Below are positions 4,742 through 23,049 of a DNA stretch of 57,485 bases, in pieces. Source of the DNA: Sulfurovum sp. (lineage in GTDB: Bacteria > Campylobacterota > Campylobacteria > Campylobacterales > Sulfurovaceae); contig JALSJI010000065.1 in assembly GCA_026989435.1 (NCBI GenBank), positions 1-57,485 on the forward strand. The letters run 5' to 3'. How positions within the stretch are numbered: the stretch's first letter is position 1; the number at the start of each line of letters is the position of its first letter. Under the pieces are notes generated by a model. That model worked only from the letters and a program-made list of their open reading frames with translations, had not been told where the DNA came from and did no database searches. The position numbers were made by a program, and so were the translations under genes.

Positions 4742-5254
4742 ATGGAACAGGAAAAATTGAGATTTAAAGATGCAGCGACGGGTATTTATAGCAGAGATTA
4801 TTTTTTGGAGACCGGGGAGTATCTTCTTGCTTTGGCAACAAGGGGCAAAGCCCCTTTGACAATCTGTGCCGTTGATATTGACTATTTAAACAGAGTGAAT
4901 GAAGTGTTTGGAAAGAGAATCGGAGATGAGGTCATCAAAACTGTAGCAATGACCGTGGATTTAAAATCCCGTAGAAGTGATTTGGCAGGATATCTCGGCG
5001 CAGGGACTATCGGCCTTATTCTCTATGATATATCCGGTGTAAATACCGGTATGGTGCTTAACGGTTTACGTAAAAAAGTAGAATATGCGATTAAAAATCT
5101 CAACTACCCAAAACTTAAAGCAACCGTGAGTATAGGTGCCTGTATGATACAGGGCGAAATGGATAAAGAGAAACTGGAAGTTATATATAAACGTGCCTTT
5201 ACAGCACTCAAGAATGCAAAAGAGGCAGGCAGAAACAAGGTTGTTGTATATTAG
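4742..5254 (+). CDS. stand-alone GGDEF-domain protein, active-site motif degenerate
   Basis: IYSRDYFLE...ICAVDIDYLNRVNEVFGKRIGDEVIKTVA...AGYLGAGTIGLILYD...ATVSIGACM...AFTALKNAKEAGRNKVVVY: GGDEF fold with the signature replaced by GAGTI. Confidence 0.85.
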   Translation: MEQEKLRFKDAATGIYSRDYFLETGEYLLALATRGKAPLTICAVDIDYLNRVNEVFGKRIGDEVIKTVAMTVDLKSRRSDLAGYLGAGTIGLILYDISGVNTGMVLNGLRKKVEYAIKNLNYPKLKATVSIGACMIQGEMDKEKLEVIYKRAFTALKNAKEAGRNKVVVY

Positions 5255-19561: not shown

Positions 19562-20497
19562 CTAAAATGGCAAATAGATCTTATCGATAAGCTCTTCATA
19601 TTCACGTTTGGCATGAGAGTCTACGGTAATGCCTCCACCGCTTTTATAGTAGAGTTTTTTATTCTCTTTTTCTAGAAAACGTATCATCACGCCAGAGCGA
19701 AGGCTCTCTCCGTTAAACACGCCGAAGACACCGGTATAAAACCCCCTCTTATACTCTTCTACCCGATGGATAATATCTACAGTACTCTTTTTGGGCGCAC
19801 CGGTAATAGAGCCCGCGGGAAGCATCTGAGAAAGGATTGTGCCTATATTGTCTCTCCAATCTTCAGGAAGCGTGGCAGTAATTTTAGAGCTTACTTGGAG
19901 TAACTCTTTTTTACCCGCTTTTATCTTTTCGACATAACGAAACTTTTCTACTTTTACGTTGGTACCTACAATACCAAGATCATTACGCATTAGATCCACT
20001 ATCATCACGTGCTCCGCCATCTCTTTGGTATCCGAGAGTATTTTCTCCTTTGCTTGGGGGATATTGGCATCAATGGTGCCTTTCATGGGGTAGGTGGCTA
20101 TAGTCTCTCCCGCTATCTCTACGAAACGCTCTGGCGAAAAGCAGATAAATTGATCTTTAAAATAGAGCTTGAACTTGGCACGCGCATAGGTAAAGATCTC
20201 TTTAAGAGTATAGTTGGTCTCTATGGGGGTTTTAAAGGTTAGGTTGAGCAGATAGGTATTACCGGAGCGTATCTGTTCGAGTATTTTGTCTAAAGATTTT
20301 TTGTAGGCAGCAAATGACACGGGGGATTTAGAAAATGTAAACTTCTTAGTACGCTTTTTTACAGGATAGTTACGCCAATCTTCCAGCTTATAGTAGATCT
20401 CTTTATCGAGTTTATCGAGTGCTTGTACAAATATTTTACTTTGGTCATAAGAGATAATAAAAAGAAAAGGTGTACGCAACTTCCCTAATGCATCCAT
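19562..20497 (-). CDS. pabB: candidate stand-alone PabB translated from internal ATG
   Basis: Internal ATG at residue 262 (KE-MDALGKLRTPFLF) lies at the apparent PabB domain boundary; 311-aa product. Confidence 0.5.
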   Translation of the reverse strand: MDALGKLRTPFLFIISYDQSKIFVQALDKLDKEIYYKLEDWRNYPVKKRTKKFTFSKSPVSFAAYKKSLDKILEQIRSGNTYLLNLTFKTPIETNYTLKEIFTYARAKFKLYFKDQFICFSPERFVEIAGETIATYPMKGTIDANIPQAKEKILSDTKEMAEHVMIVDLMRNDLGIVGTNVKVEKFRYVEKIKAGKKELLQVSSKITATLPEDWRDNIGTILSQMLPAGSITGAPKKSTVDIIHRVEEYKRGFYTGVFGVFNGESLRSGVMIRFLEKENKKLYYKSGGGITVDSHAKREYEELIDKIYLPF

Positions 20498-21280
20498 CTC
20501 TTTATAAGGGTCAGGCGTTGAAAATACACCACTATTTTTCACTATCTTTGAGATAAGTGAGCGTGAGACACCAAGATGTTTGGCAATCATGGCCTGTGTG
20601 TAGCCGTCTTTGAGTGCTAGAATAATGGCACGGTTTCTCCCATTTTCTTTAAAGTGTTGTTCTAGCGTCTTGTTAAAAGCGATAGATTTTGTGCCGTTAT
20701 GCGTAAGGACTTTTTGTGTTTGTATTGTAGAAAGTATCTCTAACTCTTTTTCGTTTAACTCTGTACCTATGATCTCTTGGATATTTGTATCGCTAAGCTC
20801 GGTAAGTAGTCTAGAGTGCAGGGTGCAAGGTGGCGGCATTTGCCCATTGGTTATGAGGGCTGCGAGCGTATAGGGGTACTCTCCTACACGAGATGCCAAT
20901 CCGGCTTGTATGGGATTTTGTTCTATGTAGCGTATGAGGGTGTAGTAGTAGGTTTCTGAGTTGATATATCTAGAGTAGAATCTCCCTTGCCAGAAGTGTC
21001 CGGAACGTTTCTGCTTTTTGTTTGCGTATATAGCATAATTGGAGTTGATATGTTTCATAAACAGGGAGATGTTTCCCCTGCTAGTCTCTATAAGAAGATG
21101 AAAATGATTAGACATCAAACAGTAGTCATGCAGCACCACGCCATACGTATTACACGCTTTGCAGACGATGCCTAAAAATACTTCATAATCTTCATCTGCT
21201 ATAAAGATGTCACTACGGTTTATCCCACGGTTAATGACATGATGGTAACCTGCTAAGTCTATGCGTGGTCGTCTGGGCAT
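19562..21280 (-). CDS. pabB: in-frame fusion: RAYT/Y1 transposase (aa 1-~261) + aminodeoxychorismate synthase component I (aa ~262-572)
   Basis: N-term MPRRPRIDLAGYHHVINRGINRSDIF...DYCLMSNHFHLLIET...RYIEQNPIQAGL plus HTH YTQAMIAKHLGVSRSLISKIVKN; C-term GKLRTPFLFIISYD...RSGNTYLLNLTF...ICFSPERF...ATYPMKGTI...MIVDLMRNDLG...GSITGAPKKSTVDII...GVFNGESLRSGVMIR. Confidence 0.9.
   Translation of the reverse strand: MPRRPRIDLAGYHHVINRGINRSDIFIADEDYEVFLGIVCKACNTYGVVLHDYCLMSNHFHLLIETSRGNISLFMKHINSNYAIYANKKQKRSGHFWQGRFYSRYINSETYYYTLIRYIEQNPIQAGLASRVGEYPYTLAALITNGQMPPPCTLHSRLLTELSDTNIQEIIGTELNEKELEILSTIQTQKVLTHNGTKSIAFNKTLEQHFKENGRNRAIILALKDGYTQAMIAKHLGVSRSLISKIVKNSGVFSTPDPYKEMDALGKLRTPFLFIISYDQSKIFVQALDKLDKEIYYKLEDWRNYPVKKRTKKFTFSKSPVSFAAYKKSLDKILEQIRSGNTYLLNLTFKTPIETNYTLKEIFTYARAKFKLYFKDQFICFSPERFVEIAGETIATYPMKGTIDANIPQAKEKILSDTKEMAEHVMIVDLMRNDLGIVGTNVKVEKFRYVEKIKAGKKELLQVSSKITATLPEDWRDNIGTILSQMLPAGSITGAPKKSTVDIIHRVEEYKRGFYTGVFGVFNGESLRSGVMIRFLEKENKKLYYKSGGGITVDSHAKREYEELIDKIYLPF
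20507..20525. repeat. 19-bp inverted repeat, pabB-side copy
   Basis: AGGGTCAGGCGTTGAAAAT; on the minus strand it encodes FSTPDP at the fusion junction. Confidence 0.95.
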
Positions 21281-21330
21281 CGTAAATCCTTTTGGTTTAA
21301 TGGAATGATTATAGCATAAGTATAGGGTAA

Positions 21331-21349
21331 ATTTTCAACGCCTGACCCT
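21331..21349. repeat. 19-bp inverted repeat, upstream copy
   Basis: ATTTTCAACGCCTGACCCT, exact reverse complement of 20507-20525. Confidence 0.95.
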
Positions 21350-21373
21350 AATAATTAATTAAGTTGTGTCGGG

Positions 21374-21411: not shown

Positions 21412-22104
21412 ATGAAAAGATTAATACCCATACTCATATCGATTTTGGTATTTATCGGCTGTGGAGAAGATAAGCCGGAGAAGAAAACACCCCAAGTGGT
21501 TATAGATAAGAGTCGTCTACAAGCAGATGATGAGATTAACGCTACGGTTTATGTTTGTTCTTTAGGAGATGAACTAGTTCGTGATGGCAATGCATCGAAG
21601 TTTGATACAACTTATGATCAAACCAATTTAGTGTGGAAGATGACACTTGATACCGGCAAGAATAAAGATTTAAAAGTTGATGAGTGTAACCTTACTTCTA
21701 CTTACTCAAGATTATGCTTTCAGGTTAATCCTGAAGAACCGGGTACGGGAATGTATCAAGAGATTTCGACAGAGACAGGCAAGAGATACAGAGTCATGGC
21801 AGAGCTTATCGGTGCAGATAATGTGGGTCATCAAGAGGATTTTACACAAGGAAGATCTTATGTCTCTATTGAAGACAGCAAACCTAAGAAAACCAGTCAA
21901 CCTCTTAAATATAGTGAGTTGGTAATAGGAAATATTCCAAAAAAAGTAGCATTTGATTTTAACGCCACTAAAGAGACGATGTACGTACAGCTTAGGGGTA
22001 ATACTGCATTTGCATACCCCTCGGCATTTTATATCTCTGTAAGAGAGTTGATTCTTCATGAAAGAGCAAATGCACCAGAGAATACAGTGGAGTGCAATCT
22101 TTAA
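21412..22104 (+). CDS. hypothetical lipoprotein, possibly carbohydrate-binding-module-like
   Basis: Lipobox LVFIGCGEDK; C-term MYVQLRGNTAFAYPSAFYISVRELILHE resembles a beta-sandwich end. Confidence 0.55.
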   Translation: MKRLIPILISILVFIGCGEDKPEKKTPQVVIDKSRLQADDEINATVYVCSLGDELVRDGNASKFDTTYDQTNLVWKMTLDTGKNKDLKVDECNLTSTYSRLCFQVNPEEPGTGMYQEISTETGKRYRVMAELIGADNVGHQEDFTQGRSYVSIEDSKPKKTSQPLKYSELVIGNIPKKVAFDFNATKETMYVQLRGNTAFAYPSAFYISVRELILHERANAPENTVECNL

Positions 22105-22134
22105 AAAAAATTAGCAAAACGACTCCGTTTTGCT
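22103..22134 (-). terminator. rho-independent terminator of pyrB
   Basis: Minus strand reads AGCAAAACG-GAGT-CGTTTTGCT-AATTTTTTTT: 9-bp perfect stem followed by T8. Confidence 0.8.
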
Positions 22135-22170
22135 ACGCTACGTCCCGTCACTACCTAATGCGAGGATACC

Positions 22171-23049
22171 CTATGCATCCAACAACAGCAACTTTAAAAT
22201 AGCCATACGCATAAAGACACCGTTTTTTACCTGAGCAAGCACTTTACATCTTGGGTCTTCAAGCATCGCATCGCTAATATCTATATTTCTCATCACGGGC
22301 CCAGGGTGCAGAAGCAGAATATCTCTATTGTGCATACGCTCTTTGGTGATGCAGTATTGCCTTGCATAGTCGTCATAGTCTTCAAACAGCTCCGTCTCAT
22401 GGCGCTCTAGCTGTGCACGTAGGCTCATAATAATATCGACTTTGTCCATAATGTCGTCTAGGTTTCTGTATTGAGGAAGATTACTGTGAGGCATAAACTG
22501 CTCAGGCGCTACAAGAAGTACATGCATTCCCATACGTGTCATAAGGCGAATCGCAGAGTTTGCCACACGTGAGCTTACGATATCTCCTACGATAGCGATG
22601 GTTTTACCCTTGATATCGCCATCAAAATGTTCTGCTATTGTAAAGAGATCCAACAGTGCCTGGGTAGGATGTGCGTAGTTGCCTGCACCCGCATTAATCA
22701 CGGGACTTGTGTGCATCTTAGCCAGTAGTTTGGGAGTGTCGTTTTTGGAGTGACGGACAATGATTCCGTCCGGCTCCATGGCACAGAGATTGGCAAAGGT
22801 ATCCTCCAGGCTTTCACCCTTTTTGGCAGAACTTCTGCTTGGATCGAGATGAACAACCGCCGCACCCAATCTTTTTGCTGCCACTTCAAAAGAGCTTCGG
22901 GTTCTGGTGCTTGGCTCAAAAAAAAGCGTAATGAGCAGTTTGTTATAAAGTAACAAGGGAGGGTGCTTGGACTTAAAACGTTTGGTATCAGCGAGTAGTT
23001 GTGCGATTTGGCTGTCTGAAAAATCATCGGTATCTACAAGATGTTGCAT
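22171..23049 (-). CDS. pyrB: aspartate carbamoyltransferase catalytic subunit
   Basis: FFEPSTRTRSSFEVAAKRLG; NAGAGNYAHPTQALLDL; LLHPGPVMRN. Confidence 0.96.
   Translation of the reverse strand: MQHLVDTDDFSDSQIAQLLADTKRFKSKHPPLLLYNKLLITLFFEPSTRTRSSFEVAAKRLGAAVVHLDPSRSSAKKGESLEDTFANLCAMEPDGIIVRHSKNDTPKLLAKMHTSPVINAGAGNYAHPTQALLDLFTIAEHFDGDIKGKTIAIVGDIVSSRVANSAIRLMTRMGMHVLLVAPEQFMPHSNLPQYRNLDDIMDKVDIIMSLRAQLERHETELFEDYDDYARQYCITKERMHNRDILLLHPGPVMRNIDISDAMLEDPRCKVLAQVKNGVFMRMAILKLLLLDA

Follow-up and report, generated by a model that had tools for sequence, protein, structure and literature searches.

The literature divides the transposases closest to the one described here into REP-flanked RAYTs and TIRYTs (PMC3733652, PMC6006769). 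The TIRYTs possess terminal inverted repeats with a GGGGWSAS motif, belong mostly to TnpAY1 subclass 2.1 and carry a C-terminal helix-turn-helix (PMC3733652, PMC6006769). Our searches of the open literature found two papers that use the term TIRYT and did not find a bacterial fusion of a transposase with PabB. In eukaryotic host-transposase fusions, a transposase domain has become part of the same frame as a host domain, and selection has retained the combination. The locus reported here resembles these in that transposase and host domain share one frame and selection appears to keep both. It differs in that the enzyme is a bacterial HUH transposase, lies upstream of its partner, has a metabolic enzyme as that partner and is joined to it via the element's own translated end.

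The window (the whole stretch of DNA analyzed, 57,485 nucleotides) comes from a 1.6-Mb assembly (G000) of 95 contigs that is 87% complete and whose nearest relatives are Sulfurovum. A sequence-only reading had described one uninterrupted frame of 572 codons that contains both a transposase and PabB, with the transposase part bounded by an exact 19-bp inverted repeat. Domain searches with Pfam and NCBIfam confirmed the frame and both parts, and the repeat was found on both sides of the transposase part. The features are as follows.

19562..21280, minus strand: transposase-PabB fusion ORF with a TIRYT-like transposase; 572 aa, calculated 65.8 kDa, ATG start, no internal stop
21331..21349, minus strand: left terminal inverted repeat AGGGTCAGGCGTTGAAAAT, exact over 19 bp (29 bp at 90% as 21326-21354)
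20915..21247, minus strand: Y1_Tnp (HUH/tyrosine) domain, residues 12-122 (Pfam, E 7.7e-15)
21098..21106, minus strand: HUH motif H59-F60-H61 (NHFH), identical in L040, L041 and L096
20927..20929, minus strand: presumed catalytic Tyr118 in the motif YIEQNP, kept in every full-length fused copy (motif definition from PMC6006769)
20534..20632, minus strand: C-terminal helix-turn-helix of the transposase (HTH_23, residues 217-249)
20507..20525, minus strand: right terminal inverted repeat ATTTTCAACGCCTGACCCT, translated as FSTPDP (residues F253-P258)
19565..20506, minus strand: PabB part, residues 259-572, with motifs TYPMKGT, VDLMRNDLG and GSITGAPK

The transposase had been called a near-complete Y1/RAYT. 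It is a complete HUH/Y1 enzyme with a C-terminal helix-turn-helix, although the HTH_23 match (E 1.5e-4, 21.9 bits) lies just under the Pfam cut-off of 24.6. Judged by its motifs and ends, a TIRYT (TnpAY1 subclass 2.1) fits better than a REP-flanked RAYT. Like the described TIRYTs (Di Nocera 2013, PMC3733652; Quentin 2018, PMC6006769), it has an HUH and Y---NP core, a C-terminal helix-turn-helix and a length of ~250 aa, and it is flanked by inverted repeats with a GGGGWSAS-like motif. Most relatives' repeats carry GGGTCAGG, which is close to the published motif, and the window repeats carry AGGGTCAG, which matches it at 7/8 positions. The two repeats are complementary at 90% over 29 bp (20502-20530 and 21326-21354). 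Small dispersed repeat copies, another TIRYT trait, are also present: the 17-bp repeat core occurs twice more in the genome (one copy exact over 19 bp, one with 1 mismatch), and its reversed control pattern had zero matches there. The RAYT/TnpA-REP proteins belong to the same superfamily and have the same catalytic motifs, but the NCBIfam model REP_Tyr_transpos scored 74.1, under its cut-off of 80. No flanking REP palindrome was seen (by inspection only), Rfam had no match in the window, and long terminal inverted repeats are present instead. IS200/IS605 was considered and does not fit: that group has subterminal hairpins (not folded here), no long inverted repeats and a Y---Q motif, and the window element has long terminal repeats and Y---NP. 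Unlike a described TIRYT, the transposase frame in the window has no stop of its own and continues across the right repeat into a gene of the host; the peptide that spans the joint is KNSGVFSTPDPYK.

The host part is PabB of the PRK07093 type, with the whole conserved enzyme and its motifs kept; only the N-terminal ~8 residues are swapped for the transposase. The Chorismate_bind domain covers residues 324-567 (Pfam, E 1.4e-61). The NCBIfam model PRK07093.1 (aminodeoxychorismate synthase component I) aligns with residues 259-572 over profile positions 7-322 of 323, so almost no conserved PabB sequence is missing, and its score of 480 bits (cut-off 275) is above the equivalog threshold. The motifs PMKGT and GSITGAPK are intact, from which aminodeoxychorismate synthase activity itself can only be inferred. 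The pabB-side repeat is indeed read as FSTPDP. PabB-like sequence does not, however, begin seven codons past it, as had been proposed: homology resumes right after the repeat, where YKE aligns with the native F-K-Q/E. The only other chorismate-binding enzyme in the genome is a 470-aa TrpE-like protein; the pathway, together with the lack of a second PabB in an incomplete (87%) genome, is the basis for inferring that PabB is essential here. AlphaFold2 with 15 sequences gave a model of the fusion too poor for use (mean pLDDT 48.5, pTM 0.32), and a larger alignment put transposase-only rows in the wrong place.

Comparison with unfused relatives supports the proposal that pabB lost its 5' end and start to the element. 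In these relatives the gene order is clpS-bioD-pyrB-pabB. Nearly all of the 80 distinct unfused pabB genes compared have their own N-terminus, and most lie shortly 3' of pyrB. In the nearest kin the pabB ATG sits at the pyrB stop (e.g. TTAATATG) without a Shine-Dalgarno sequence, and the protein begins M-W-(Y/L)-x-K-E-E-G-F-K-Q-I-D. Everything before F/Y, the first ~8 native codons, is absent from the fused forms. Reading of the sequence 5' of the element did not reveal the lost codons in the window, L040 or L041; a plain insertion is thus not demonstrated, and no target duplication was found. The mechanism of insertion remains an inference. The region upstream of the fusion contains the following:

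22171..23049, minus strand: pyrB, the usual upstream neighbour of pabB in relatives
22112..22135, minus strand: intrinsic-terminator-like hairpin (10 pairs, T-run) directly 3' of pyrB, before the fusion
21412..22104, plus strand: orphan lipoprotein-like gene (lipobox-like FIGCG), divergent from the fusion, between it and pyrB

Searches of the orphan gene against Pfam, NCBIfam and PHROG gave no match, and neither did tblastn against the relatives that were fetched. Because the hairpin and an opposite-strand gene intervene, pabB in the window is separated from the pyrB transcription unit. In L041, ~550 bp separate pyrB and the fusion. In L050, an unfused pabB lies 2.3 kb from pyrB and has a different native N-terminus (MKKINLFKETFENIN) that is similar to the L041 joint.

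A search of genome contigs found the same fusion in further Sulfurovum assemblies. It is whole in L040 (genome G018, 84%) and L041 (G039, 78%, on a 325-kb contig). L042, which was assigned to G108 by its identical joint sequence, retains the last ~45 transposase codons, the joint and PabB; its contig begins there. The joint is in frame in all of them, in L040 despite a 39-nt duplication and in L041 despite a longer joint. L043 (G017) is different: the left repeat, AGGA, the ATG and nine transposase codons (MARKPRIDL) lead directly into FSTPDT-PabB, and an in-frame TAG lies just 5' of the ATG. The simplest reading of this arrangement is a scar, in which the transposase was deleted in frame from an earlier fusion while PabB would still be initiated at the transposase ATG. 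No relatives were detected in viral contigs, and no plasmid record spans both halves.

Several other traces of such elements were observed. In L077, TTTAAGG..ACTGACCCC lies at about 60-100, some eleven bases 5' of an unfused pabB ATG, and the same MAG holds the unfused element L096; this may be a second, more eroded excision scar, for which the evidence is ~ten bases. L041 has a second right end of a transposase just 5' of position 5001, roughly 970-990 bases before PabB; it reads SGVFSTPDP followed by the stop TGA and is a remnant of another element copy at the same place. L166 (G018:C230, at a contig end) has two left ends 59 bp apart that are nearly identical to the left end of the fused element, probably a further recent copy in G018. 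L155 (G109:C33) contains the left repeat, the promoter and the first ten transposase codons, followed by left-end-like sequence of another TIRYT type (AGGTGACAACGACAACT), and is a deletion hybrid of two elements. A ~30-bp segment, CGCATTA.TGGTGG..AAG.TAGTATACTA, lies beside the fused elements in L040 (1-290) and L041 (about 4930-4990) in opposite orientations, and short direct repeats, e.g. ATTTAAGGGTC three times, lie beside element ends.

The closest unfused copies suggest how the joint could form, because their frames also read into the right repeat. In L125 and L126 the protein ends in YSTPDP and the stop arises at the repeat edge; L127 ends YSTPDPKGN and L096 ends FSTPDPHSDPHSILS, each followed by a stop. 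More distant members mostly stop before the repeat or outside it in another way. Such an open-ended transposase frame makes the in-frame capture of a downstream gene easy. The distribution of the elements is patchy, and the L125 and L126 elements are 92% identical at the nucleotide level while the PabB genes of their hosts are 71.5% identical. From this comparison the elements are inferred to move between species; direct movement was not demonstrated.

We consider it likely that a TIRYT element took the place of the 5' end of pabB and that the element's signals now drive the synthesis of PabB as the C-terminal part of a transposase fusion. The element would have come to the 5' end of pabB and replaced the start codon and the first ~8 codons. 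Its closest relatives meet a stop at or after the edge of the right repeat; here the flanking bases form none, and the frame runs on into pabB. The element would then supply the promoter, ribosome-binding site and ATG, and PabB would be the C-terminal half of a ~66-kDa protein. The host would keep the transposase frame because its loss or frameshift should also cost PabB, and selection at the amino-acid level has acted on the transposase half as well. In L043, an in-frame deletion would have left nine codons and the repeat as the new N-terminus of PabB.

Whether the fusion arose repeatedly is less clear. A single fusion event, with the 5' end (element and joint) spread by recombination rather than by repeated insertion, is a serious possibility, though not one we favor. 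It would account for the nearly identical repeat and joint codons in all cases and for the single, well-supported clade (100/99) formed by the fused transposases and the unfused L096, which falls inside the fused group. pabB is also the sole partner: among the listed Y1_Tnp matches from 78 genomes, a list that ends at weak matches, the only open frames >400 aa were the three pabB fusions, and no other long transposase fusion partner in the genus was found among them. Against such spread, the PabB tree (28 rows) rejects one clade both for all five cases (AU, p 0.001) and for the four fused ones (p 0.007), G108 pairs with G016 in PabB (92/86) as well as in RpoB (100/97), and the L041 joint differs and resembles the L050-type native N-terminus. 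The RpoB tree likewise rejects the fused hosts as one clade (AU, p 3e-9 with the scar, 3e-8 without). These trees reject vertical descent of all fused cases from a single origin; the G108 fusion would then have arisen separately or received its 5' end by transfer. The window and G018 PabB are sisters (98/97), and a clade of the window, G018 and G039 was not rejected by PabB (p 0.11) or RpoB (p 0.39); a single event may account for the window, G018 and perhaps G039. A quick PabB tree of 82 rows was set aside for the careful 28-row tree because it was unstable (some constrained trees beat the free tree). A TTTAAA target preference, considered as a reason for the shared joint codon, is not supported. 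TTTAA occurs at the joint position in 10 of the 80 unfused pabB genes (0.03 expected per 15 nt of gene body), which is largely codon-driven, and in only two of the four fused or scar cases outside L040.

For the transposase half, the question is whether only its reading frame is kept and the protein is a dead leader, which we judge unlikely. L043 does show the transposase to be dispensable for an in-frame PabB, and the window copy has 11 private replacements where L040 has 1. The catalytic motifs, however, including the HUH and tyrosine motifs, are intact in all full-length copies. Between the window and L040, dN/dS (pairwise NG86) is 0.12 for the transposase (bootstrap 0.07-0.18) and 0.07 for PabB, and in the catalytic half (the first 122 transposase codons) it is ~0.05 (0.039/0.84). 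These are pairwise estimates, and synonymous sites are saturated for most other pairs. By this measure, the transposase half is under purifying selection at the amino-acid level, and the selection goes beyond frame-keeping, because a ratio closer to 1 would be tolerated if only the frame mattered. The second, nearly identical left end at the G018 contig edge also suggests recent movement. Nucleotide identity is 83.2% in the transposase half and 82.7% in the PabB half, as expected if the fusion was inherited together. The fusion thus meets the criterion for a domesticated fusion of being kept across species under purifying selection; functional data on any new host function of the transposase part are lacking, and any activity of this half is inferred.

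The sequence-only reading had left three routes by which folate synthesis could depend on this locus: expression from the transposase start, an internal ATG, or a bifunctional protein. The relevant signals are as follows.

21308..21316, minus strand: promoter-like extended -10 TGCTATAAT, with TTGAAA within the left repeat 19 nt upstream
21286..21293, minus strand: Shine-Dalgarno-like AAAAGGAT before the transposase ATG (-5.6 kcal/mol)
20495..20497, minus strand: candidate internal ATG (M262), without Shine-Dalgarno sequence (-0.6), not conserved

The -10-like hexamer is kept in twelve aligned left ends (in the closest copies TATAAT preceded by TG, in the others TATACT or a similar hexamer, weaker in L043). 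The promoter scanner did not list it because the 19-nt spacing is outside the tool's range. Promoter-like matches in the region were no more frequent than in shuffled sequences; the element promoter rests on resemblance to the consensus, and its use is inferred. The Shine-Dalgarno sequence at the transposase ATG is similarly strong in L041 (-5.6 kcal/mol) and L040 (-5.5), and the scar keeps only that start. Without transcript or protein data, we infer that PabB is made as a fusion from the transposase start. That PabB is instead made separately, from the internal ATG or an internal promoter, with the fused frame incidental, appears improbable. The window, L040 and L042 do have an in-frame ATG at the PabB boundary. 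Initiation without a Shine-Dalgarno sequence occurs in bacteria, and since the native pabB of the nearest kin, which abuts pyrB, also lacks one, internal initiation is not excluded. Nevertheless, the candidate scores only -0.6 in the window, the joint ATG is absent in L041 and L043, and the frame has stayed open through the 39-nt duplication of L040, the longer joint of L041 and the in-frame deletion of L043. Of the three routes, the transposase start is thus retained and the internal ATG disfavored, and bifunctionality is not settled.

An assembly chimera or sequencing error is scarcely credible: although every fused genome is metagenome-assembled and repeated elements are prone to misassembly, the same in-frame joint recurs in separate assemblies (full fusions in L040 and L041, the joint in L042) with synteny on both sides and on the long L041 contig, so the frame across the joint is genuine and not a local sequencing error.

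Taken together, the fusion of TIRYT and PabB permits a broader reading, which we advance only tentatively. The element would protect itself by serving as promoter, ribosome site, start codon and N-terminus of an indispensable pabB, with its translated repeat as the linker; the arrangement would have arisen more than once, the product would be a bifunctional nuclease-PabB, and the host could escape only by an in-frame deletion like that in L043. With the repeat as a translated linker, dependence would be possible in one step, upon insertion beside an open frame; dependence of folate synthesis on the element remains inferred.

The locus provides a bacterial case of one conserved frame that encodes both a transposase and an enzyme of the folate pathway. 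Because intact, partial and scar states exist among related species, two questions become testable: how single-copy HUH transposases persist for long periods although no function for the host is obvious, and how fusions of host genes with transposases originate. In this element subfamily, the open-ended frame would be a simple and general route to fusion, one that needs no splicing and only that the flanking base does not complete a stop codon.
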